From Anaerolineales bacterium UBA7227 (GTDB taxonomy: Bacteria; Chloroflexota; Anaerolineae; Anaerolineales; Villigracilaceae), in assembly GCA_002473085.1 (NCBI GenBank), contig DKTP01000032.1, forward strand, positions 1 through 53,605: a DNA stretch of 53,605 nt, in the 5' to 3' direction. The notes under the pieces are model-generated. The model was not told where the DNA came from, did no database searches, and saw nothing but the letters and a program-made list of their open reading frames with translations. The first letter of the stretch is position 1; every line of letters starts with the position of its first letter. The position numbers were made by a program, and so were the translations under genes. Below are positions 3,910-21,668 of this stretch, in pieces.

Positions 3910-4116
3910 ATGACCACAGCCCAAGCCACCGCAGAAGTGTTTTGGACCGCTTTCAAAGTTCTTCCTGCCGAAGAAAAACGCGCCGTGTTGCAATATATCA
4001 TTCTCGACGAAAATCTTCGCCGCGACCTGATGGACTTGTCCATCATTGAAGAGCGCCGCAAAGAACCTGGACGTCCTTTGCGTGAGTACTTGAAGGAAAA
4101 GGCGAAGAAGCAATGA
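3910..4116 (+). CDS. Probable antitoxin of a RelE/ParE-type module (module 1)
   Basis: The 68-residue acidic/basic protein has no motif I can name. It is called an antitoxin because it is small, lies directly upstream of a RelE-like toxin gene and overlaps it by 4 nt (ATGA), the typical arrangement of type II toxin-antitoxin pairs. An AAGGAG ribosome binding site at 3897-3902 supports the start. The C-terminus is strongly charged (KEPGRPLREYLKEKAKKQ), as expected for an antitoxin tail that wraps its toxin. By family behaviour it would neutralise the toxin and repress the operon. Confidence 0.65.
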   Translation: MTTAQATAEVFWTAFKVLPAEEKRAVLQYIILDENLRRDLMDLSIIEERRKEPGRPLREYLKEKAKKQ

Positions 4117-5163: not shown

Positions 5164-7662
5164 CTATTCCCCCATCAGCGCGATCGTCACGCCTTCGCCG
5201 CCCTCGTTGGACTGGGCCTCCTCGAACGAGCGCACGTACGAATGTCCGCGCAGGGCGGCGCGCACGGCGGCGCGCAGTTTCCCCGTCCCCTTGCCGTGGA
5301 CGATCCGCACGAACGGCAGCCCCGCGAGATACGCCTTTTCGAGATAACTCTCCAGCCTCTCCAGCGCGTCGTCCACCATCATGCCGCGCAGGTTGACCTC
5401 CAGGCCGGGGGAAGTGACGGGTGACGGGGGGCGGGTGACGGGGGACGATTTCCGTACTGCGTGCTGCGTATTGCGCAAAGGCTGATCGCTGATCACTGAT
5501 GACTGATGACTGATACGCTCCAAGTCAACGAGACGCGCCCGCACGCGCAGACTCCCGATCTGGACTTCCGCATCCGACTCACCCAAAGCGGTCACCACGC
5601 CTTCGGCATTCAACGTCCCCACGCGGACGCGCTCGCCCAGACGAATTGGAGATTGGAGATTCGAGATTTCCGATTGCGCCTCGACCTTCGACCTTTGACG
5701 TTCAACGGGAGCCTGCGCCTTCTCCTCCATCGCTTCCACTTTTTCTTCCAGCGACTTGAGCGCTTCGAGCGGTTGACGCGCCTTCCGCAACTGTGACTTC
5801 AGCGAGTCGATGTTTCTTTTTAGCACAGCCACTTCCAACTCACCCTCGGCGCGGGCTTTGGCAAGGACCTCGCGGCGTTCGTCCTCCATCTGGTCGAGTC
5901 TGGTTTCGAGCTCTTTCGTCTTCGCTTCGAGTTTGGCGCGCGCCTTCTCCATCTTTTCGCGTTCGCGGGAGGCACGGTTGCGTTCCTTGCGGATGTCGTC
6001 GAGCAGTTTGTCGGCGCGGAGGTCTTCGGGGGAGACTTCGCTCCGGGCGGCCGCGACAATTTCGGGGTCCAGGCCGAGGCGGGAGGCGATGGCGATGGCG
6101 TTGGAGCGGCCGGGGAGTCCGATCGTCAGTTGGTAGGTCGGGCGGAGAGTCTTCACGTCGAATTCCACCGAGGCGTTGACCACGCCCTCCGCGGCGTGCG
6201 CGAATTGTTTCAGTTCGGGGTGATGCGTGGTGACCAGGGTCGTCGCGCCGCGTTCGAGCAGCCGGGCCAGGATGGCGCGCGCCAGGGCCGCGCCCTCCTG
6301 CGGGTCGGTGCCTGCGCCGAGTTCGTCGAGGACGACAAGCGAGCGGTGGTCGGCTTTTTTCAAAACGTTGATGATGTTGGTGATGTGGCCGCTGAAGGTG
6401 CTGAGCGATTGCTGGATGGACTGCTCGTCGCCGATGTCGGCGTAGACCGCCTTGAAGAGACTCAACTCCGAGCCGCTCTGCGCGGGGATGTGGAGTCCGC
6501 TTTGCGCCATGAGGACGATGAGCCCGACGGTTTTCAGCGCGACGGTTTTTCCGCCCGTGTTGGGACCCGTGATGACGACGGCATGTTTGCCCTCGGGTAT
6601 GTCGAAGTCAATCGCGACGACGGCGGTTGGATCGAGGAGGGGATGGCGAGCATGAAAGAGACGGAGGACGGGAGACGGATGACGAGATTGGTCGGTCCTC
6701 GATCCTCGGTCCTCGGTCTGCATGAAGATCGGCTCGCTCGCGTGAATCTCCTCCGCGTATTTCGCTTTGGCGAAGGCGAGGTCGAGCAGCGCGAGGGACT
6801 CCACGCCCCAGATGATCTCGTCTCCGTGTTCGGCGACGAGGCGCGAGAGTTCGGCCAGGATGCGGCGTTCCTCGTCGCGTTCCTGCAACTCCAGTTCGCG
6901 CAATTCGTTGTTCGCCTCCACCACGTTGAGCGGTTCGACGAAGAGCGTCGCGCCGCTGGAACTTTGGTCGTGGACGATGGCCTTGATCTTGCCCTTGTTC
7001 TCGGCGCGCAGGGGGACGACGTAGCGTCCGTCGCGCTGGGTGATGAGATTTTCCTGCAACAGCGGCGCGGTGCGCGGGTCGGTGAGATAGCGCTGGAGGC
7101 GCGTCATCAGGCGGTCGTGCGCGACGCGGATCTCGCGGCGGAGCGAAGCGAGTTTGGGCGAGGCGGAATCCAGGACCTCGCCGCGCTCGGACAGAGTCCG
7201 CGAGATGGCGTCCACCAGTCCGTGCGTGTCGGGCAGGCCGCGGGCGATTTCAGAAAGATGAGGATACGAATGTTCTTTGACGGAGGTCGCGCCGCGTTTG
7301 GTCGGTTTGGATTCGGCGGCTTCGTCCCGTTCGATCCTGCCCACCCCAAACGTCTTCCGCAGCTCGCGCGCCGAGATGAGCGTGGACTTGACGTCGAGCA
7401 TCCCCTGCGGGTCAATCACGCCGCCGCGCCGCGCCAACTCCACCGAGGGACGCACATCGTGCGCGCCGCCCACCGACGCCCCGCTGACGGAGAGCAGCAG
7501 CCGCGCTTCGGTCGTCTCGGCGAGGAGACGCTGGATCTCTTCGAGGCGGGTGGACGGCTGCAACTTGCGCGCCAATTCCACCGAAGCGGAGAACGCGCAG
7601 TTTGCCGCGAGGCGGTCGAGGATCTTGGGATATTCGAGGACGGAGAGGGTCTTGGTGTCCAT
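5164..7662 (-). CDS. mutS2: Endonuclease MutS2
   Basis: The 832-residue protein has the MutS2 architecture: N-terminal core and clamp helices, an ABC-type ATPase with Walker A GPNTGGKT at residues 366-373 and Walker B VVLDELGAGTDP at about 443-454, a charged coiled coil at about 540-650, and a C-terminal Smr nuclease domain from about 753 containing HGKGTGKLR. MutS2 proteins suppress recombination or rescue collided ribosomes. The usual Smr LDLHG motif reads VNLRG here. Three segments look like captured repeats: TEDRGSRTDQSRHPSPV near 316-332, SEISNLQSPI before the last linker, and a 35-residue linker before Smr with VISDQ, RNTQHAVR and SPVT units. TATAAT lies 8 nt upstream of the ATG, suggesting a leaderless mRNA. 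Confidence 0.95.
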   Translation of the reverse strand: MDTKTLSVLEYPKILDRLAANCAFSASVELARKLQPSTRLEEIQRLLAETTEARLLLSVSGASVGGAHDVRPSVELARRGGVIDPQGMLDVKSTLISARELRKTFGVGRIERDEAAESKPTKRGATSVKEHSYPHLSEIARGLPDTHGLVDAISRTLSERGEVLDSASPKLASLRREIRVAHDRLMTRLQRYLTDPRTAPLLQENLITQRDGRYVVPLRAENKGKIKAIVHDQSSSGATLFVEPLNVVEANNELRELELQERDEERRILAELSRLVAEHGDEIIWGVESLALLDLAFAKAKYAEEIHASEPIFMQTEDRGSRTDQSRHPSPVLRLFHARHPLLDPTAVVAIDFDIPEGKHAVVITGPNTGGKTVALKTVGLIVLMAQSGLHIPAQSGSELSLFKAVYADIGDEQSIQQSLSTFSGHITNIINVLKKADHRSLVVLDELGAGTDPQEGAALARAILARLLERGATTLVTTHHPELKQFAHAAEGVVNASVEFDVKTLRPTYQLTIGLPGRSNAIAIASRLGLDPEIVAAARSEVSPEDLRADKLLDDIRKERNRASREREKMEKARAKLEAKTKELETRLDQMEDERREVLAKARAEGELEVAVLKRNIDSLKSQLRKARQPLEALKSLEEKVEAMEEKAQAPVERQRSKVEAQSEISNLQSPIRLGERVRVGTLNAEGVVTALGESDAEVQIGSLRVRARLVDLERISHQSSVISDQPLRNTQHAVRKSSPVTRPPSPVTSPGLEVNLRGMMVDDALERLESYLEKAYLAGLPFVRIVHGKGTGKLRAAVRAALRGHSYVRSFEEAQSNEGGEGVTIALMGE

Positions 7663-8191: not shown

Positions 8192-8287
8192 ACCACAGAG
8201 GCGTTTGGGTTTATAGAACACTTGCGCTAGTTTGTTTTGTCTGGTATTATACAAGTGCTATCAATTTTTCCCAGAGAAGAGGAAATC

Positions 8288-9460
8288 ATGGGTGACAATA
8301 TACTGGTAAGAAACATCCCGTCCGAACTTCGCAATTGGATTGATGATGAACGCCAGCAAAATAAAATGAGCCAACAGGAATTTGTTTTATCAGTTCTTAG
8401 AGAAGCACAAAGCGTTTATCAACCAACATTATCATTGTTTCCTCCTGTTGCTGATGAAACGGAATCAGATTCTATTCCATTCAAGTTTATTGATTTATTT
8501 GCAGGAATAGGCGGATTTCGTATTGCACTTACAAAACTTGGTGGGAAGTGCGTTTTTTCATCTGAATGGGATAGGTATTCCCAAAAAACCTATAAAACCT
8601 GGTTTGACGAAATCCCTCATGGCGATATTAGAAAAATTGAGCCATTCGAAATACCTGACCACGATATTCTCGCTGCTGGTTTTCCATGTCAGCCGTTTTC
8701 AATTGCTGGTGTATCTAAGAAAAACAGTTTAGGTAAGGCTCATGGTTTCAATGATGTGAATCAGGGAAATTTATTCTTCAATTTAGCCACAATCATTGAA
8801 ATAAAACGTCCCCCCGTATTATTCTTGGAGAACGTGAAAAATTTACAATCCCATGACCAAGGAAGAACATGGAAAGTAATTCGAGAGACTCTTGAAGGTT
8901 TGGATTATTGGGTGAACGCGAAAGTTATTGACGCTGCTGGATGGGTTCCACAGCACCGAGAGCGTATTTACATTGTTTGTTTTGATAAAAAGGTGTTCAA
9001 GACTGAGCCAAACTTTAACTTTCCCGAACCACCCGAAGGCGAGAGTCCAAAACTGGCTGATATTCTTGACCCAAAACCCGACTCAAAATATACATTAACC
9101 GACCATTTGTGGAACTACTTACAGAATTATGCAGAACGTCATCGAGCGAAAGGAAACGGCTTTGGTTTTGGTTTGGCATATCCAAAAGGCATTACCCGCA
9201 CCTTAAGTGCCAGATATTATAAAGACGGTTCAGAAATTTTGATTCCACAAAAAGGGAAAAACCCCAGACGATTAACTCCGCAAGAATGTGCTCGCCTGAT
9301 GGGATTTGATGATGTTAAAATTGTGGTATCAGATACCCAGGCTTATAGGCAGTTTGGGAATGCCGTTGTTCCTAAAGTCGTTGAGGCTGTCGGACGCGAG
9401 ATTACGAAAGTCTTAGCGTGGCAAATCCGAAACGGCGATAACTGTCTTCTAAAGAAATAA
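8288..9460 (+). CDS. C5-cytosine DNA methyltransferase with N-terminal RHH-like segment
   Basis: The 390-residue protein carries the C5-methyltransferase motifs in order: motif I FIDLFAGIGGFR (67-78), motif IV FPCQPFSIAG with catalytic C134, motif VI ENV (181-183), motif VIII QHRERIYIV (about 222-230), a C-terminal RRLTPQECARLMGF and motif X YRQFGNAVVP. Residues 1-45 (ILVRNIPSELRNWID, then an S-x-x-EFVLSVLREA helix) resemble a FitA/Arc-type ribbon-helix-helix DNA-binding unit, which may allow autoregulation. The start at 8288 is preferred because of AGAGGAA upstream and because the fold begins there. Its partners are an EcoRII-type endonuclease and Vsr, so the target is plausibly CCWGG by analogy. 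The gene is clearly more AT-rich than its surroundings. Confidence 0.93.
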   Translation: MGDNILVRNIPSELRNWIDDERQQNKMSQQEFVLSVLREAQSVYQPTLSLFPPVADETESDSIPFKFIDLFAGIGGFRIALTKLGGKCVFSSEWDRYSQKTYKTWFDEIPHGDIRKIEPFEIPDHDILAAGFPCQPFSIAGVSKKNSLGKAHGFNDVNQGNLFFNLATIIEIKRPPVLFLENVKNLQSHDQGRTWKVIRETLEGLDYWVNAKVIDAAGWVPQHRERIYIVCFDKKVFKTEPNFNFPEPPEGESPKLADILDPKPDSKYTLTDHLWNYLQNYAERHRAKGNGFGFGLAYPKGITRTLSARYYKDGSEILIPQKGKNPRRLTPQECARLMGFDDVKIVVSDTQAYRQFGNAVVPKVVEAVGREITKVLAWQIRNGDNCLLKK

Positions 9461-9478
9461 CCCTTCTCAGGAGGATAT

Positions 9479-10651
9479 ATGCAGTCACTATTTTGTGAAA
9501 AAGCAATTGAAGATTCTCTGAAATATAAGAGGGCAATTCTAAAAATAATTTCACCTAATGATGTTGGCGTTACTGGCGGACACCAAAGTGGTTATTATTT
9601 GCCAAAGGAAGTTTGGCATTTGTTCACTCCTCAAAGACCAGAAAAAGGTATAAATCATCATCACCCAGTCACGGTTATTTGGCAGGACGGGAATACAACC
9701 AATTCAAATGTGATTTGGTATGGACAAGGAACACGGAGCGAATACAGACTTACAAGATTCGGGCGGAATTTTCCATTTCTGGAGAATGATAATGTTGGTG
9801 GTTTGCTGGTTTTGATTCCTAAAACACTATCAGAGTTTTATGCCTATGTTCTTGACCTAGATGAAGATATTGAAGAAATCCAAGCAGCACTTGGCGTTGA
9901 ATTAATCAGAAATTGGGTTGCTTACGAAGAGGGTGTAGCAATTGCGGAGACAGAAGACGTTTGTTTGAATCGAAAGTTTAGAGAATTTGTTGCAACTGTT
10001 AGAGTATTGCCTTCGGGAGCAGTTTTTTCAAATACAACCAGAGAAGCGTTAATAGAATGCGTTCATGAATTTATTAGATTTACTCCCGACGAACAATTGA
10101 TTCGTTTAGTTAATCAGGAATATACTCTTTACAAGATGGCTGAAAGAAAAGTCTTTGAGCCAGAAGTGACGCGGTTGTTTAGGGATATAGATGATTTTAT
10201 AGAGACGGCAATGCATATTTTACAGAGGCGCAAAGCCAGAGCGGGACGATCACTTGAAAATCATGTTGATTTTTTGTTAAGGCAAGCAGGAATTCCACAT
10301 GAGATGCGGCCTTCCGTTGATAAAACAGAACCAGATATTATCATTCCCAACAAGTTGTCTTACGATGACCCTGAGTTTCCTGAGAGAAAACTTTTTATGG
10401 TCGCCATAAAAACAACTTGTAAGGATAGATGGCGGCAGGTCACAAGAGAAGCGCCTCGCGTTAAGCACAAACATATCATAACAATGCAAAAAGGAATTTC
10501 AACCAAACAACTCGACGAAATGAATCATTTAGATGTTTCTCTTATTGTTCCAGAAAAACTACATAGGGATTATCCTAAAGATGGAAGAGGATCATTGTTA
10601 ACTATTGAGTTATTTTTGGATTTGTTGAAAACCACATATCATTTAGCATGA
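9479..10651 (+). CDS. Type II restriction endonuclease, EcoRII family
   Basis: The 390-residue protein is close in length to EcoRII. The N-terminal half contains HQSGYYLPKEVW, HHHPV and WYGQGTRSEYRLTRFGR, which match the EcoRII effector-binding domain. The C-terminal half contains GRSLENHVDFLL (E260), EPDIIIP (PD at 285-286) and IKTTCKDRWRQV (K311, K315), the EcoRII-type catalytic region. The family binds two or more CCWGG sites and cuts before the first C; this specificity is inferred here. An AGGAGG ribosome binding site lies at about 9470-9475. It sits 18 nt after the methyltransferase and overlaps vsr by 4 nt. Confidence 0.92.
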   Translation: MQSLFCEKAIEDSLKYKRAILKIISPNDVGVTGGHQSGYYLPKEVWHLFTPQRPEKGINHHHPVTVIWQDGNTTNSNVIWYGQGTRSEYRLTRFGRNFPFLENDNVGGLLVLIPKTLSEFYAYVLDLDEDIEEIQAALGVELIRNWVAYEEGVAIAETEDVCLNRKFREFVATVRVLPSGAVFSNTTREALIECVHEFIRFTPDEQLIRLVNQEYTLYKMAERKVFEPEVTRLFRDIDDFIETAMHILQRRKARAGRSLENHVDFLLRQAGIPHEMRPSVDKTEPDIIIPNKLSYDDPEFPERKLFMVAIKTTCKDRWRQVTREAPRVKHKHIITMQKGISTKQLDEMNHLDVSLIVPEKLHRDYPKDGRGSLLTIELFLDLLKTTYHLA

Positions 10652-11058
10652 TGGACGTCTTAACTCCCGAACAAAGAAAATTGAATATGTCGAGAATCCG
10701 AAATAAAGATACTCGACCAGAAATAGTTGTTCGGTCTCTGATTCATAGGATGGGATACAGATACAGATTGCATGTCAAAAACCTGTCTGGGAAACCCGAC
10801 TTGGTATTTCCCCGTCGAAGAAAAATAATTTTCGTTCACGGCTGTTTCTGGCATATGCATAATTGCAAATACGGCAGAGTAAAGCCGCAAACCAATGCAG
10901 AGTTTTGGGAAAATAAGAGACTCGGAAATATCGAGCGTGACAGGAAAAACTTATCTTTGCTCAAAAAGGATGGCTGGAAAGTATTAGTGGTTTGGGAGTG
11001 CTGGATTAGAAACCCGCAATCACTAGCAGATCGAATTTTAATATTCCTCGAAAAATAA
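10648..11058 (+). CDS. vsr: Very short patch repair endonuclease
   Basis: The 136-residue protein has the Vsr layout: MSRIRNKDTRPEIVVRSLIH, a YRLHVKNLSGKPDLVF block with D51, and FVHGCFWHMHNCKYGR with H64 and H69, then the WxxKxxxNxxRD and VxWEC blocks. D51, H64 and H69 occupy the positions of the metal and catalytic residues in E. coli Vsr. Vsr nicks 5' to the T of T:G mismatches formed by deamination of 5-methylcytosine, so it limits the mutagenic cost of the neighbouring cytosine methyltransferase. It is coupled to the endonuclease gene through ATGA overlap. Confidence 0.96.
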   Translation: MMDVLTPEQRKLNMSRIRNKDTRPEIVVRSLIHRMGYRYRLHVKNLSGKPDLVFPRRRKIIFVHGCFWHMHNCKYGRVKPQTNAEFWENKRLGNIERDRKNLSLLKKDGWKVLVVWECWIRNPQSLADRILIFLEK

Positions 11059-13062: not shown

Positions 13063-14259
13063 ATGTTCAATCTAAAGACCACCCCCTTCCATGAGCGGAC
13101 GTCCGCTTTGTGCCAGCCGCAGAACTGGCGCAAATGGGCGGGCTACTTCGCCGCCGGTTCGTACGAACACACGCTCGACCGCGAGTATTGGGCCATCCGC
13201 AACGCGGCCGCGCTGATAGACGTCACGCCGCTGATCAAGTACCTCGTCAAAGGCCGGGACGCGGCCGCGCTGCTGCACCGCGTCACCACGCGCGACATCC
13301 ACAAGATGAAAGTGGGACAGGTGGCCTACACGGGCTGGTGCGACGAAGACGGGAAGATGATTGACGACGGGACCGTCTCCCGCCTCGACGATTCGACCTT
13401 CCGCCTGACCGCGGCCGAACCGAACCTCCGCTGGCTGACGCTGAACGCGGTCGGCATGGACATGGAGATCGTCGAGATCACCGACGAGGTCGCGGCGCTC
13501 AGTCTGCAGGGACCCCATTCGAGGTCCGTGCTGAAGCGGGTCTGCGAGGCGGACGTGGACGGGTTGAAATACTTCCGTCTGATGGAAAACAAGATTGGCG
13601 GGGCCGACGTCACGATCTCGCGGACGGGTTACACGGGCGATCTCGGCTACGAGGTCTGGATGGCGAACAAGGACGCGCTCCCCGTCTGGGACGCGTTGAT
13701 GGACGCGGGCGCGGACTACGGCATCACGCCCGTCGGGATTTTGGCGATGGACATGGCGCGCGTCGAAGCGGGGCTGTTCATGCTCGACGTGGATTACACC
13801 TCCGCCTCGCACGCGTGGATCGAGCGGCAGAAGTCCTCGCCGTTCGAGTTGGGCCTCGATTGGACCGTCGCGCTCGACAAGCCCGGCTACTTCGTCGGAC
13901 GCCGCGCGCTGGAGAAAGAGAAGCGCGAAGGCTCCGAGTGGAAGATGGTCGGCCTGGAAGTGGACTGGGAGGGGATGGAGAAATTATTCAAAAAAATGGG
14001 ACTGCCTCCGCAGATCCCCGGCATGGCGATTCGGGCGAGCCTGCCCGTGATGGCGGGAGGCAAACAAGTGGGATACGCGTCCACTTCGAGTTGGTCGCCG
14101 CTGTTGAAAAAATACATCGCGCTGGCGCACTTGCAGAGGCCGCATTACGAGATCGGGACGAACGTGACGATGGAGGTCACGGTGGAACATCAACGCCGGC
14201 ACGCGCCCGCCCGCGTGGTGAAACTTCCCTTTTACGAACCCGAATGGAAAAAGAAATAA
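13063..14259 (+). CDS. GcvT-like aminomethyltransferase family protein
   Basis: The 398-residue protein has the folate-binding T-protein fold: AAALIDVTPLIKYLVKGRDA, then LHRVTTRDI, GQVAYTGWCDEDGKMIDDGTV, SLQGPHSR, ISRTGYTGDLGYEVW and a C-terminal barrel with GYASTSSWSPLLKKYIALA. Because no glycine cleavage partner (P, H or L protein) is adjacent, it may act in another one-carbon demethylation. A TAAAAT hexamer lies 7 nt before the ATG. It is followed after 2 nt by the DsbA/FrnE-family gene, so the two are probably cotranscribed. Confidence 0.85.
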   Translation: MFNLKTTPFHERTSALCQPQNWRKWAGYFAAGSYEHTLDREYWAIRNAAALIDVTPLIKYLVKGRDAAALLHRVTTRDIHKMKVGQVAYTGWCDEDGKMIDDGTVSRLDDSTFRLTAAEPNLRWLTLNAVGMDMEIVEITDEVAALSLQGPHSRSVLKRVCEADVDGLKYFRLMENKIGGADVTISRTGYTGDLGYEVWMANKDALPVWDALMDAGADYGITPVGILAMDMARVEAGLFMLDVDYTSASHAWIERQKSSPFELGLDWTVALDKPGYFVGRRALEKEKREGSEWKMVGLEVDWEGMEKLFKKMGLPPQIPGMAIRASLPVMAGGKQVGYASTSSWSPLLKKYIALAHLQRPHYEIGTNVTMEVTVEHQRRHAPARVVKLPFYEPEWKKK

Positions 14260-14261
14260 TC

Positions 14262-14873
14262 ATGGACTTCAAACTGACCATCTACTCCGATTACATCTGA
14301 CCGTGGTGCTATGTCGGCCAGGGTGTGGTCGAGCGGCTGAAAGAAAAATACAACGTGGACGTGGACTGGCGTCCGTTCTACCTGCGTCCCGACACGCCGC
14401 CCGAGGGACTGGACCTGCCCGATTACGTCCTGCGCGGACGGGAAAACGGGTCGGAGGAACGCCTGTATCAGATCGCGGAATCGTACGGGATGAAGTTCGT
14501 CTCCGCCCGGCGACTTTACAGCACGCGTCTCGCTCACGAAGCGACGGAGTTCGCGCGTGAACGAGGACGGGGAAACGAGTTCCATCGGATCGTCTTCCGC
14601 AAAGTCTACGCCGAGGGAGAGGACCCAGCCAGATGGGAAACGCTCCGCGCCGCGGCCGAGGAGGCGGGTCTCGACGCCGAGTCCATGCAGCGCGAGGTGG
14701 AGGCGGGCAAGTACGCCGAATCCGTCGCGGCCCAGGTTCAAAACGCCTACCAGATCGGCGTCCAAAGCGTCCCGACATACGTGATCAACGACCGCTACGC
14801 CATCGTCGGCGCGCAGCCGTATGAAGTGTTCGCGCGGACGTTGGAGAAGTTGAAGAAGGATGGGGAGATATAG
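14262..14873 (+). CDS. DsbA/FrnE-family oxidoreductase with in-frame TGA at the active site (probable selenoprotein)
   Basis: Reading through one TGA at 14298-14300 gives 203 residues starting MDFKLTIYSDYI, then TGA, then PWCYVGQGVVERL. FrnE/DsbA-like proteins normally have CPWC here, so TGA replaces exactly the first active-site cysteine (residue 13), leaving U-P-W-C with C16. The rest is a full FrnE-like thioredoxin-fold protein: YNVDVDWRPFYLRPDTPPEG, the helical insert, then VQSVPTYVINDRYAIVGAQP with the cis-Pro loop. The frame is intact on both sides. A hairpin at 14314-14332 meets bacterial SECIS expectations. A conventional caller would start at the GTG at 14325 and lose the active site. 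The alternatives are a point mutation of TGC to TGA or a sequencing error. Confidence 0.8.
14298..14336 (+). promoter_or_regulatory. Candidate bacterial SECIS element with Sec codon
   Basis: After the TGA (14298-14300), TCGGCC (14314-14319) pairs with GGTCGA (14327-14332), including one G-U pair, and leaves the 7-nt loop AGGGTGT. The loop begins 20 nt after the TGA and has G at its second position. Bases 14301-14303 can also pair with 14334-14336. Known bacterial SECIS elements have a short upper stem and a G near the start of the apical loop at about this distance. This is a hand-fold and has not been energy-checked. Confidence 0.6.
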
Positions 14874-14960: not shown

Positions 14961-15635
14961 ATGAAAACCACCCTTCTCCAGCCATTTGAGCGAATCCCCT
15001 ACTTTACGATCGAAGGATTCAAACAGGCCGCCGACATTTCGAAGGCGGAGCAGGCGCGCCTGTTGCTTCACCGCTGGGTCAATGCGGGGCATCTTATCCA
15101 GTTGAAGAACGGCCTGTATATGACCCGCCGTTTTTACGAACAGCGCCGCAATGATGCGGCATTCTCCGCGGCCGTCAGCGCCATCATTCTGCCGCAGTCG
15201 TATCTCTCCCTCGAATACATTTTGCAGAAATACAATATCCTCACCGATGTAACCTACCCCGTCACGGCAATCACCGCCAAGAACACGCGGCGGATCGTAA
15301 ACTCTCTCGGCACATTCTGGTATCGAAACCTGCGCGCGGACTTGTATCACGGCTTCACGATCTCCGACTATTTTGGAGTCAAATACGCCGAAGCAACATT
15401 AGCAAAAGCCCTCTTCGACTTTCTCTACCTTCGTCCGCTCTCGAACGTTCTACGCGCTCCCAACCTCGATCTGGCCGAGGAACTACGCCTCAATCTCGAC
15501 GATGTGGCGGGCGAGGCCGTCTCGGAGTTTTTCTCCCATGTCGAGCGGAGCGGCGTCCGCAAGATGAAAATGGCCGCGGAAAATTTCAGGAGGCATGTGT
15601 GGCAAACCTGGTGCAAACCCTCCAGCATGTTCTGA
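14961..15635 (+). CDS. AbiEi-type antitoxin/transcriptional regulator
   Basis: The 224-residue protein begins with a winged-helix-like region (YFTIEGFKQAADISKAEQARLL, LHRWVNAGHLIQLKNGLYM) typical of AbiEi antitoxins. A larger C-terminal domain contains SYLSLEYILQKYNI and AEATLAKALFDFLYLRP. By family it neutralises the AbiEii nucleotidyltransferase by an indirect type IV mechanism and represses the promoter. The perfect inverted repeat immediately upstream fits autoregulation. No Shine-Dalgarno sequence is visible between the palindrome arm and the ATG. It overlaps the toxin gene by 37 nt. Confidence 0.85.
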   Translation: MKTTLLQPFERIPYFTIEGFKQAADISKAEQARLLLHRWVNAGHLIQLKNGLYMTRRFYEQRRNDAAFSAAVSAIILPQSYLSLEYILQKYNILTDVTYPVTAITAKNTRRIVNSLGTFWYRNLRADLYHGFTISDYFGVKYAEATLAKALFDFLYLRPLSNVLRAPNLDLAEELRLNLDDVAGEAVSEFFSHVERSGVRKMKMAAENFRRHVWQTWCKPSSMF

Positions 15636-16435
15636 CAGAAAAAGACCCCGCGTTGGCAAACGAGACCAAACGGATTCTTTTAAAGTCTGCTTTGCAGGCA
15701 TTCACGTTGGATTTCCTCTACAACCATCCCATCTACCGCGGCTTGAACTTCTACGGCGGGACATGCCTGCATGTCGTTTACGGATTGAATCGTTTATCGG
15801 AAGATCTCGACCTGGATAACGGACACGGCATTGACCTTGCCAGCCTGTCCAGCGATGTGCTTGCTTTCTTTCAAAAAACACACAGCTATTCCGAAGCGGC
15901 GGTCAAAACCCAGAAAGCCGCCAACGGGATTTTGCGAATTACGCTCAAATTCCCCGTTTTGAACGCGCTCGGACTATCCAACACGCCCAACGAGGCGCTT
16001 CACCTAAAAATGGAAGTGACTCATCACAAGCAGGCAGCCGTGATCAAGAAGACGCCCGTGTTATATTATGGAAGAAGCATTGTCCCCGCGCATTTTTCCC
16101 TCGAAACGATGATGGCTGGAAAAATGATCGCCTGCCTCGAACGTAACTTTCAGCGCGGACGCGCTGACGCGACCCTCAAAGGCAGAGACTTTTATGACCT
16201 GCTCTGGTTCATGCAAAAACGCATCGAACCCTTGAAAGAGAAACTGGCAAAAGATGGCAAAAAGGAATATACGCCCGAATCAGCAATGGCCGAATTGAAA
16301 GCAAAAATTCAGCATATCCGTAAAGAAGACCTTGCCATTGACCTGCTTCCCTTGTTTGAGTCGCGCGTCTTCATCGAGGCCTGGCTGGATGGTTTCCACG
16401 AAAATTTTGACGATCTGATGGCCGCTTATCTATAA
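15599..16435 (+). CDS. AbiEii-type nucleotidyltransferase toxin
   Basis: The 278-residue protein has the AbiEii/DUF1814 nucleotidyltransferase core: NFYGGTCLHVVYGLNRLSEDLDLD, with GGT at 53-55, R65 and the S67-x-D69-x-D71 metal-binding triad. A downstream K-x-E-VTHH strand and a GRDFYDLLWF helix are also typical. AbiEii/MenT-type toxins transfer nucleotides onto tRNA acceptor ends or other targets, causing reversible growth arrest or phage abortive infection. The start is GTG at 15599, preceded by AGGAGG at 15588-15593 inside the antitoxin gene. An ATG at 15595 is in another frame. Confidence 0.87.
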   Translation: MANLVQTLQHVLTEKDPALANETKRILLKSALQAFTLDFLYNHPIYRGLNFYGGTCLHVVYGLNRLSEDLDLDNGHGIDLASLSSDVLAFFQKTHSYSEAAVKTQKAANGILRITLKFPVLNALGLSNTPNEALHLKMEVTHHKQAAVIKKTPVLYYGRSIVPAHFSLETMMAGKMIACLERNFQRGRADATLKGRDFYDLLWFMQKRIEPLKEKLAKDGKKEYTPESAMAELKAKIQHIRKEDLAIDLLPLFESRVFIEAWLDGFHENFDDLMAAYL

Positions 16436-18545: not shown

Positions 18546-19379
18546 ATGCGGGATAAGGAATTCATCCTCTTCTGCGACGAATCGGACAGACACGGCAAGT
18601 ATTACTCCAACTTTTATGGCGGGGTGATTGTTGGTTCCTCGCAATACCAGCGAATTACTGACCGTTTGAACAATACCAAAGCCGATCTCAATCTTTATCA
18701 GGAAGTCAAGTGGGAAAAAGTAACTGAACTCTATTTGCCAAAATACGAAGAACTGATCCGCGTCTTTTTCGAGGAAATCTCTCGTAGTAATCTCCGCGTC
18801 AGGATCATGTTTCGCCAAAACGCCCACCTGCCGCGCGGATTGAGTCGTGAGCAGGTGGATTGGGAATATTATTTGCTGTACTACCAGTTCGTTAAGCACG
18901 GATTTGGGTTGGAGCATGTTCTAGAAAATATCCGCCTGCGTTTGTATTTCGATACTTTCCCCGACACTGCCGAAAAGAGCGAGCAATTCAAAGGTTTTCT
19001 GCTTGGGTTGACCAAAACCAAAAAATGGCAATCCATCGACATCAATAGAGAAGACATTACCGAAGTTCATTCCCACAATCATGTCATTTTGCAGTGTCTC
19101 GATATCGTTCTCGGTGCAATGTCTTTTCGTTTGAATGACAAACACAAGGAAATTCCCAAAGGGGCAAGGCGGCGAGGGAAAAGAACCGTTGCCAAAGAGA
19201 AACTTTACAAGACAATTCTCTCTGAAATTCGCAAAATACGCCCCAACTTCAATATCGGCGTAAGCACGAGAACGGAAACGCCTGCCGACAGATGGAGGCT
19301 GCCATACATGCATTGGGCATTTATCCCGTCGGACGAAACTTTTGATTCCTCCCTGATCAAACCGCGCCGCAGGAAATAA
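18546..19379 (+). CDS. DUF3800 domain protein
   Basis: The 277-residue protein begins EFILFCDESDRHGKYYSNFYGG, the DES motif and glycine turn that open DUF3800 proteins. It continues with YLPKYEELIRVFFEEI, YYQFVKHGF and the late HNHVILQCLDIVLGAMSFRLN motif, where an aspartate (LD in the LDIVLGAM stretch) and preceding polar residues fit the family's likely metal-dependent active site. The biochemical function of DUF3800 is not established; the genes are often found among defence genes. TATAAT at 18522-18527 and AAGGTG before the ATG give expression signals. It is bracketed by two copies of the same palindrome. Confidence 0.8.
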   Translation: MRDKEFILFCDESDRHGKYYSNFYGGVIVGSSQYQRITDRLNNTKADLNLYQEVKWEKVTELYLPKYEELIRVFFEEISRSNLRVRIMFRQNAHLPRGLSREQVDWEYYLLYYQFVKHGFGLEHVLENIRLRLYFDTFPDTAEKSEQFKGFLLGLTKTKKWQSIDINREDITEVHSHNHVILQCLDIVLGAMSFRLNDKHKEIPKGARRRGKRTVAKEKLYKTILSEIRKIRPNFNIGVSTRTETPADRWRLPYMHWAFIPSDETFDSSLIKPRRRK

Positions 19380-19389
19380 AAAGACCCCA

Positions 19390-19436
19390 CCTGACCTACA
19401 TCAGTATCTGACGCATAACGTCAGACTTCGGTCAGG
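19390..19436. repeat. Nested double hairpin downstream of the DUF3800 gene
   Basis: An outer stem CCTGACC (19390-19396) with GGTCAGG (19430-19436) encloses an inner stem TCTGACG (19407-19413) with CGTCAGA (19419-19425), loop CATAA. No T-tract follows directly, so this could be a structured RNA, an operator or a weak terminator. Confidence 0.6.
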
Positions 19437-19510
19437 CAGGGGGGCTACGCTTATTATACAACTTTGTAGAACTTTGTCAAAACGAGTTTTTCGCGTCGGC
19501 GGATCGGATG

Positions 19511-19545
19511 AACGCGGAGAGTTTAATTCTCCGCGTCCGTTTTAT
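19511..19545. repeat. Palindromic repeat / terminator, copy B
   Basis: ACGCGGAGA (19512-19520) pairs with TCTCCGCGT (19528-19536), followed by CCGTTTTA. It matches copy A at 18421-18450. A -10-like TATAAT follows at 19555-19560 and probably drives the next gene. Confidence 0.7.
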
Positions 19546-19610
19546 CTTGGCGGGTATAATCGTTACATATCTATTCCAAACATCGAAATTTTCTATTTTG
19601 GAGGATTGCA

Positions 19611-21668
19611 ATGAAAGCAGATAGTTTGAAAATTGCAAGAGTATTTGCCAATGGAGGAGACGTTCATTACGTTCTGCCTCACTTTCAGCGTGAATATGCT
19701 TGGGATAAAGAAAACTGGCAAACACTTCTGAATGATGTAATTGGGCTGTATGAATCTTATACGTCAGACAAAGAACCAGAGCACTTTATGGGGGCATTAG
19801 TAGTTATAAACGATGGTACGCGCAACGGGGTCATTCCAGCCTTTAAACTTGTTGATGGGCAGCAACGGTTAACCTCAATCTCGTTGTTGCTGTGTGCGTT
19901 AGGCCAAATCATTGAGAATACTCATGCTTCTTTACACAAACGTATCCGACGTTTATTGACCAACCCAGACGAAACGGATATTTTATTTTACAAACTTGTT
20001 CCCACCAAGAAATATGGTGATCGAGACGCTTATCTTGCTTTACTTAAAGGCGATGAATTTCCAGAGGGAATCGATTCAAAAATTCCAGAAGCATATCGAT
20101 TCTTCTTCAAAGAACTTGACAACAGAATTAAGGCTCAAGCGGTAGACCCTGATCGTCTATTTCTTGTATTGGCAAATAGCCTACAAGTTGTTTTTATCGA
20201 TCTTGATCAAGGAGAACGCCCATATGAAATATTTGAAAGTTTGAACGCAAAAAACAAACCTCTCACACAAGCAGACTTGGCAAGAAACTATATCGCAATG
20301 AAATTGCCTGAAAAACGGCAGACCGATGTGTTTGAAAAATCCTGGTCAAAGATTGAAAACCTGCTTCAAGACAAAAGAACGGTCGGACGATCAAATCTTG
20401 GCGAGTTGACTGGATTTTTGCGCCATTATTTGACGATGAGAAATGGGGTGTTATGTAATGAAAGGCATGTCTACGAAAGATTTCGAGATCGAATAGAAAA
20501 TGAAACATCCAATGTGAATGAATTTGAGGAGGAGATTGGTACTCTAAAGAAGTTTGCGGAATATTATGATCGTTTGCTTCGCCCCGAACATGAACCCGAT
20601 TTAGGCATAAAGACAAAATTGCGCCGCCTGAATGTTTTGGAGATTTCAACGGCTTATCCTTTCCTGTTGCAGGTTTACGAAGCATATGGCAATAAAAGTA
20701 TTTCTCGCGCTGAGTTTGAGGAAATATTAGACATACTTGAAAACTATATTGTTCGTCGTTATCTGACCAACGAGCCAACCAATTACTTGAATAAGATGTT
20801 CCCTGTATTATGGCGAGAGATTAATCCATCCAAACTGATCGAGTCGCTGAAAAGAGTAATTGTTTCCAAGAAATATCCTTCGGATATAAATGTCCGTCGC
20901 GAAGTGTTGACTGAGCAAGTTTATGACAAACGCAGTCAAACGCGCGAAAAGATAGTTCTTATTCTGGAAACAATCAACAGACATCTTTCAATAAAGAATC
21001 ACTCTGGCGGATACACGATTCTTGATAAGCCTGCAACAATTGAACACATCATGCCTCAAACCTTGAGTGATGAATGGAAAACCCATCTTGGAAAGGCATG
21101 GGAGCAAACTTATAAAGATTATCTGGATACTTTAGGCAATCTAACTTTAGTTACCCAAGAATGGAACTCGGAACTTTCGAATTCTCCATTCCCGAACAAG
21201 AAGAATAAACTTGAACGACATGCGTTGACTTTGAACAATGAATATTTCTCACAAAGAATCTCCAAGTGGGATGACAAAGCGATTCAGAATCGCGCGAAAT
21301 TCTTGATCGAAGCAATATTGGAAATATGGACGGAGCTTGGAACACCACCTGTAGTTCAGAAATCTTCAGGCACAAAACCTAGATCCCTGACGATCCTAGG
21401 CCAGGCGTTTGTTGTAAATACATGGCGAGACGTTGCATATTACACCTCGCAAATCGTCAGCGAGTTAGTTGATGATTTTGAAACCAGGATTGCAGCACAA
21501 ATGCCCGCTTATTTTGATAAACATGAATTCCAAAATGCTTGCAAACAACTTCCAAATGGTTGGTGGCTGTATTTGAATCTGTCAGCCGCTAGTGTTAAAA
21601 GCCTATGTCGCAATTTGCTGACACTTGCTGGTATTTCAGAAGATGATTGGCAATTGGAAGAAGATTAG
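19611..21668 (+). CDS. GmrSD-like DUF262/DUF1524 protein (probable type IV restriction factor)
   Basis: The 685-residue protein opens with a DUF262 domain (PHFQREYAWDKENWQ, FMGALVVIND, KLVDGQQRLTSISLLLCALG), a ParB-like NTPase seen in GmrS. Its central part carries FESLNAKNKPLTQADLARNYI. The C-terminal half has a DUF1524 HNH-type nuclease motif IEHIMPQ with H479 and a later LDTLGNLTLVTQEWNSELSN block. GmrSD-type enzymes cut modified phage DNA. A further C-terminal module (about 600-685) has no assignment. GGAGG at about 19600-19604 supports the start. The gene is AT-rich relative to the housekeeping genes, suggesting transfer. Confidence 0.88.
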   Translation: MKADSLKIARVFANGGDVHYVLPHFQREYAWDKENWQTLLNDVIGLYESYTSDKEPEHFMGALVVINDGTRNGVIPAFKLVDGQQRLTSISLLLCALGQIIENTHASLHKRIRRLLTNPDETDILFYKLVPTKKYGDRDAYLALLKGDEFPEGIDSKIPEAYRFFFKELDNRIKAQAVDPDRLFLVLANSLQVVFIDLDQGERPYEIFESLNAKNKPLTQADLARNYIAMKLPEKRQTDVFEKSWSKIENLLQDKRTVGRSNLGELTGFLRHYLTMRNGVLCNERHVYERFRDRIENETSNVNEFEEEIGTLKKFAEYYDRLLRPEHEPDLGIKTKLRRLNVLEISTAYPFLLQVYEAYGNKSISRAEFEEILDILENYIVRRYLTNEPTNYLNKMFPVLWREINPSKLIESLKRVIVSKKYPSDINVRREVLTEQVYDKRSQTREKIVLILETINRHLSIKNHSGGYTILDKPATIEHIMPQTLSDEWKTHLGKAWEQTYKDYLDTLGNLTLVTQEWNSELSNSPFPNKKNKLERHALTLNNEYFSQRISKWDDKAIQNRAKFLIEAILEIWTELGTPPVVQKSSGTKPRSLTILGQAFVVNTWRDVAYYTSQIVSELVDDFETRIAAQMPAYFDKHEFQNACKQLPNGWWLYLNLSAASVKSLCRNLLTLAGISEDDWQLEED

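Follow-up and report, generated by a model that had tools for sequence, protein, structure and literature searches.

The 53,605-nucleotide stretch analysed here (contig DKTP01000032.1 of Anaerolineales bacterium UBA7227, hereafter the window) carries at positions 14262 to 14873 a gene that almost certainly encodes a selenoprotein, namely a FrnE/COG2761-type oxidoreductase of the DsbA fold with a UPWC active site, in which UGA codon 13 is read as selenocysteine (Sec, U) via SelB and a hairpin. This reading is based on the codon, the predicted fold, the machinery genes of the genome and a constraint on the hairpin that tracks the TGA; the actual insertion of Sec, the direction of catalysis and the substrates are what we infer. 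The features involved, including the selenocysteine insertion sequence (SECIS), its bacterial form being abbreviated bSECIS, are the following:

14262..14873, + strand: frnE/dsbA-like gene; ATG 14262, stop TAG 14871-14873, 203 codons plus stop, codon 13 is TGA
14298..14300, + strand: predicted selenocysteine codon TGA, U13 of the UPWC active site; TGA or Cys at the same codon in relatives
14307..14309, + strand: TGC, presumed resolving cysteine C16 of UPWC; invariant column (37-row alignment), sole Cys of the protein
14314..14332, + strand: bacterial SECIS-type hairpin UCGGCC-AGGGUGU-GGUCGA, loop 14320-14326; bSECIS model, silent-site constraint, covariation
14772..14774, + strand: Pro171 codon, Val-Pro motif; invariant (37-row alignment)

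An earlier note, made from the DNA letters alone, had placed an in-frame TGA at the first-cysteine position of a CPWC motif with the frame intact on both sides. This holds: a single frame leads from ATG 14262 through the TGA and stays open until the TAG ending at 14873. The predicted product of 203 residues contains one Sec (U13) and one Cys (C16), begins with MDFKLTIYSDYI-U-PWC..., and would yield the tryptic peptide LTIYSDYI-U-PWCYVGQGVVER across residue 13. Both the DSBA domain (PF01323) and the DsbA fold are found in it, with a predicted strand at residues 3-9 followed by a helix at 14-29, so that U13 lies at the start of the first long helix. Residue 13 (with Sec written as C), P14, C16 and P171 are all invariant in the 37-row alignment, and Pro171 is presumably the cis-Pro of thioredoxin folds.

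In the proposed mechanism, the ribosome would meet UGA at codon 13 while the hairpin, 14-32 nt downstream, holds SelB with Sec-tRNA(UCA), and Sec would be inserted. The catalytic pair would be formed by Sec13-Pro-Trp-Cys16 at the helix start. By analogy, the selenolate of Sec13 would attack a substrate disulfide to give a mixed selenenyl-sulfide, which Cys16 would resolve as a Se-S bond that is then reduced by a cellular thiol. Because the protein has no C-terminal CXXXXC, re-reduction would have to come from another thiol. FrnE proteins are predicted cytoplasmic thiol oxidoreductases according to excerpts of PMC8945050, where a disulfide reductase role is proposed for the protein of Deinococcus radiodurans (DrFrnE) and sensitivity to cadmium and diamide is described for its mutant. 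The enzyme of the window is probably cytosolic as well, as stated for FrnE, since its predicted fold begins at residue 3 and leaves no room for a signal peptide.

The codon and its hairpin in relatives

A scan of named genomes covered the best 80 of 254 relatives, one of which (L134) is untyped, its contig beginning after the codon. In the 79 typed relatives the codon is TGA 47 times and Cys 32 times, the two states that the earlier note had suggested looking for, and never Trp. In a second set, consisting of the window's own genome and related ones (41 in total), TGA occupies the codon in all 15 near-full-length matches; the nine nearest genomes, which all have TGA, encode an intact flanking protein with 62-79% identity. 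Of two further, partial matches across the codon, that in G034, whose genome has no selB over the cut-off, reads TGC, and that in G038 contains one TGA somewhere along its length. The gene is common to many Chloroflexota (Anaerolineales) bacteria.

Could the TGA truly stop translation, with a short or re-initiated product being the functional one? An open reading frame (ORF) of this kind exists, and the prediction of the earlier note that standard gene callers would report it, at the cost of the active site, is borne out by the same form in databases for close relatives:

14325..14873, + strand: truncated ORF from GTG, as standard gene callers report; 182 codons, start inside the hairpin, without the active site

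One close relative (P0002, 182 aa, 97% identical) is listed in this truncated form. The best 120 of 2305 database homologues comprise 55 CPWC-type proteins, 59 without the active-site motif (172-187 aa long), five with WPWC and one (P0039) with CSWC in place of CPWC; none of these 120 displays U, which may be written as C. Databases often cut the gene short and lose the active site. A functional short product is nevertheless very improbable. Both the first strand and the active site of the thioredoxin fold would be missing from it, relatives share the 12 codons upstream of the TGA in sequence as well as in position, and the Cys relatives encode the full-length protein.

For comparison of the hairpins, rows whose proteins are identical after residue 12 were merged (from 94 to 86), and L168, which contains Ns, was excluded from the hairpin counts. 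The hairpin that the earlier note had described is present at 14314-14332 (DNA TCGGCC-AGGGTGT-GGTCGA, six pairs, the first loop base being the 20th after the TGA), fits the bSECIS rules and shows conservation linked to the TGA. RNA folding of the 19-mer adds a seventh pair, A-U, leaving the loop GGGUG at -9.1 kcal/mol. The bSECIS model as quoted in excerpts of PMC13188914 allows a loop of 3-9 nt, a stem of 4-16 bp, G in the first two loop bases, a spacing of 16-37 nt and a minimum free energy of at most -7.5; the window hairpin has a loop of 5 nt, 7 bp and a spacing of 20 nt.

Genes that keep the TGA also keep the hairpin, which has mostly gone from those with Cys. In a scan restricted to unbroken stems, the bSECIS model at -7.5 is matched by 43 of 54 Sec rows vs. 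0 of 31 Cys rows, and at -6 kcal/mol by 50 of 54 vs. 1 of 31, the single Cys row being L137. All six stem pairs are present in 39 of 53 distinct Sec segments, compared to 3 of 30 distinct Cys segments (Mann-Whitney p of 1.4e-8 for the stem-pair contrast, kinship uncorrected). Two hand-chosen alignments were compared in addition. In the first (A1; 24 of the 53 Sec segments) 97.2% of cells pair, a value favoured by the omission of L181 and L025-L029, in which the hairpin is absent or in another register; three pairs display two-sided changes, and none of five covariation measures was reached by any of 500 shuffles. In the second (A2; 17 of the 30 Cys segments, omitting the Lokiarchaeota rows as well as L176 and L178-L180), 65.7% pair and nothing exceeds the shuffles.

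Silent sites provide the sharpest contrast, measured on hand-chosen sets of 35 Sec genes and 10 Cys genes from the window's clade. Across hairpin codons +5 to +11 of the Sec genes, synonymous differences amount to 0.08 of expectation vs. 0.875 elsewhere, and these codons are the lowest seven-codon stretch of the gene. In the Cys genes the constraint is gone (0.877 vs. 0.906 elsewhere). Since the encoded residues are alike in both sets, the constraint acts on the RNA, and because the silent sites of the hairpin are conserved together with the TGA, the hairpin stands far above chance. The contrast of 0.08 vs. 0.88 offers a simple and strong criterion for bacterial SECIS calls where single-sequence folding is uninformative.

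The same data bear on the idea that the gene is a decaying pseudogene or that its TGA is a Cys codon misread in sequencing. A lone TGA in an otherwise intact gene has indeed the look of a fresh nonsense change or error. However, the same TGA recurs at the same codon in the 47 typed loci, from many separate assemblies, the protein around it is intact in the nine nearest genomes, and the silent sites beside it are constrained; we regard this explanation as extremely improbable for the window, and for the family it is refuted by the conserved TGA.

In L025, L026 and L028, more distant Sec copies from the same order (28-31% identity), the hairpin lies in another register (GAGUCC-GGUCU-GGACUC), and the SECIS element seems to have been re-sited.

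Selenocysteine machinery

Reading the codon as Sec implies an insertion machinery, and the protein genes for it, selA, selB and selD, are present in the window's own genome, G000, with scores above the curated cut-offs (SelA 549.6, SelB 336.7 and SelD 354.3 bits). The selD gene (L186 1501-2433, equivalent to G000:C35:33059-33991) itself has one in-frame TGA, with the context read as ...ACAG-U-ASK..., and the 45 nt past this TGA fold at -22.4 kcal/mol; it is a probable selenoprotein gene, too. The search for selB covered the genomes behind 50 of the 79 typed loci (30 of 47 Sec, 20 of 32 Cys). The gene is over the cut-off in 29 of the 30 TGA genomes and 16 of the 20 Cys genomes, the exceptions being L148 (TGA) and L145, L146, L156 and L178 (Cys), and likewise in 14 of the 15 TGA carriers of the 41-genome set. 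A clear tRNA-Sec is present in 29 of those 41 genomes (59.7-76.4 bits), and ARAGORN reads all nine of the loci submitted to it as tRNA-SeC with anticodon TCA.

Could this organism translate UGA into another residue, such as Trp (table 4), instead of Sec? Although the five WPWC entries among the best 120 homologues (P0011, P0018, P0028, P0051 and P0068) have W at this position, that possibility is extremely remote, since TGA is the stop of 13 of the 36 long ORFs in the window and hence not reassigned genome-wide, the alternative residue in typed relatives is Cys and never Trp, the Sec machinery is present, and the W in these entries is most likely the work of gene callers choosing a UGA=Trp code. 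These entries may serve as a handle for finding other mis-called selenoproteins.

Several observations weigh against the selenoprotein reading. The 48-nt fold of the TGA region is unexceptional (z-score -0.11; 85 of 200 shuffles fold as well), so that the hairpin taken alone does not exceed chance; single-sequence folding was consequently rejected as SECIS evidence. The bSECIS model is also satisfied at 605 of 12551 other codons (4.8%) of the same genes, which makes a lone match weak, but the contrast between Sec and Cys rows is strong. Of the 54 Sec rows, 11 fall short of the -7.5 cut-off and four do so even at -6. Four Cys rows have all six stem pairs, namely L137 and the Myxococcus rows L149-L151, the latter three failing the loop rule. 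In two Sec carriers no selB reaches the cut-off: G026, with 168.1 bits at best, and the genome of L148. Finally, tRNA-Sec was not found in G000 itself, where 150 of 579 first-look candidates were scored.

The site at which a sister genome has selC falls at a contig end in the window's own assembly. tRNA-Sec was likewise not found in G003 and G007, which, as does G000, carry the TGA gene, and a sister's selC region used as a DNA query gave no tRNA match in G000 or G003. In the sister genome G006, selC sits directly before a gene which we take to be an M50-type peptidase. The peptidase homologue is cut at the contig end in G000 (C54:17567-17989 of 17994) and in G003 (5175-5864 of 5866), and in G007 the match to the tRNA region itself starts at the first base of a contig. 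The absence of tRNA-Sec is therefore most simply read as an assembly gap. Seven RF01852 matches in the own genome were rejected as tRNA-Sec, as ARAGORN reads them as Ser, Leu, Gly and Met tRNAs. In G004, repetitive DNA with a masked or unknown run lies between tRNA-Pro(GGG) and tRNA-Sec (L054 700-1421, G004:C23); such a repeat beside tRNA-Sec may explain assembly breaks next to selC. An Rfam scan gave no family at the gathering score, and its two weak matches were both far below it and away from the hairpin.

Switching between Sec and Cys

A tree was calculated from the 86 proteins, with Sec masked as X and the Cys rows unmasked. It needs 10 Sec/Cys changes, at least seven of which are forced by starred branches. 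The tree contains long, composition-odd rows that render deep placements unsure, and only switches inside the window's clade are used; binning of metagenome-assembled genomes could misplace single rows (e.g. L154, titled Ktedonobacter). This clade of 46 rows, which holds the Anaerolineales rows (support 96/61), comprises 36 Sec and 10 Cys rows. The Cys rows branch off at five points: L107, L114, L123, L137 and a group of six rows that includes Mesolinea and Leptolinea. Support for some of these positions is weak, but a single clade for all ten is rejected with p of 4.8e-6 (the group having been named after seeing the tree). Because the next three rows outside the clade are Sec and the four beyond them Cys, the sequences are most simply read as recording five Sec-to-Cys changes inside it.

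Does the hairpin follow the codon on the tree? Seven independent pairs can be drawn on starred branches; hairpin and TGA occur together in an average of 5.5 of them at -7.5 and 5.2 at -6, with the reverse association never seen (median p of 0.031 and 0.0625, respectively). The contrast has the right direction and modest power. L137 (Anaerolineaceae UBA2260, 4037-4072) has TGC at the codon and yet shares its hairpin, letter for letter, with the Sec row L111; it is a probable fresh Sec-to-Cys switch with a relic hairpin. selB is over the cut-off in eight of the ten Cys genomes of the clade, including L107, L114, L123 and L137, and the switch is thus not only a by-product of the loss of Sec. In the two Leptolinea genomes (L145, L146) no selB over the cut-off was found.

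We lean, by a small measure, towards the view that the Anaerolineales enzyme was ancestrally a selenoprotein and went back to Cys at five places, mostly with selB kept (8/10), the SECIS hairpin decaying afterwards and L137 being caught with its hairpin intact. If true, the direction would be opposite to the majority in a 2006 survey, which according to excerpts of PMC1794560 counted 33 Cys-to-Sec events in 17 families vs. 15 Sec-to-Cys events in four. The natural Sec/Cys series, with the same fold, related hosts and selB often kept, makes it testable in matched pairs what Sec buys an enzyme.

Related families and genomic neighbourhood

The earlier note referred to Sec as established for other thioredoxin-fold families, which requires the amendment that publications already describe it for the present family (DsbA-like, COG2761, UxxC). 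The Sargasso Sea selenoproteome of 2005 was the first to predict it, with nine DsbA-like sequences of COG2761 with UxxC (PMC1088965), 45 sequences in 41 organisms were listed in 2016 (PMC5029168), and a 2026 review names a "DsbA-like protein form 1" (PF01323, UxxC, example NIP15863.1; PMC13188914), in each case as given in excerpts of these papers. The published proteins belong to the same Pfam family and have Sec in first position of UxxC, and the Sargasso paper reports SECIS-like stem-loops downstream. The excerpts mention neither an Anaerolineales clade nor Sec/Cys turnover, a comparison made at the level of descriptions. Our literature searches, judged from titles and the starts of abstracts, returned no report of this clade; for Chloroflexi, excerpts of the 2006 survey give three selenoproteins in three families (PMC1794560). 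The protein is therefore a member of a known selenoprotein family; its SECIS signature is unusually clear and its Sec/Cys series informative, and a well-supported Sec clade from a mostly uncultured group joins a little-studied redox family.

In comparison to the window protein, FrnE of D. radiodurans (DR_0659; PDB 5cnw, 5co3, 5coh, 5cp1 and 5xwh) has Cys in place of Sec. At its C-terminus DrFrnE also possesses a CXXXXC motif (residues 239-244), for which a role in regeneration has been proposed; this motif is absent from the 203-residue window protein with its one Cys. According to excerpts of PMC8945050 this motif occurs in many FrnE homologues and some, among them FrnE of S. roseofulvus, are named as being without it. 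The sequence is thus compatible with a FrnE-like protein despite the missing motif, and no assignment to the DrFrnE subtype is claimed. SCO1869 of Streptomyces coelicolor (PDB 3gl5) is more distant in sequence than FrnE, and its entry title is without Sec. The Rcas_1661 family thioredoxin-like (seleno)lipoprotein (NF041057, under which excerpts of PMC13188914 list a "DsbG-like protein") likewise combines the thioredoxin fold with Sec members. Membership in it was rejected, as the window protein scores 44.1 bits vs. a cut-off of 190, and only with the C-terminal half (residues 91-196); no NCBIfam model is over its cut-off.

Upstream of the Sec gene lies a GcvT-like gene (13063-14259). The earlier note had remarked on this adjacency, which is real, with 2 bases between the genes, but we take the neighbour to be incidental: none of the 93 other loci of the 94 searched has the GcvT-like gene (upstream DNA of 64 bases to about 4 kb), and a conserved operon or functional unit was rejected. 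Clustering of 507 neighbouring ORFs from 78 loci gave groups of at most 12 loci, and the window is in none of the twelve neighbour clusters listed. One ORF scanned from each of six of these twelve gave DUF4153, glyoxalase, an exonuclease with WYL, a luciferase domain, adenosine deaminase and NUDIX. We read the Sec gene as being without a fixed partner.

Directly downstream follows an AbiEi/AbiEii-type toxin-antitoxin pair with overlapping ORFs (14961-16435). An EcoRII-type restriction-modification set is located at 8237-11058 (C5 DNA methylase, EcoRII endonuclease with N and C domains, and Vsr mismatch endonuclease), and a DUF3800 protein (PADLOC PDC-M04A) with a GmrSD-type restriction protein at 18546-21668. 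Together, these systems give the region from 8.2 to 21.7 kb the look of a defence island, with the Sec gene inside it.
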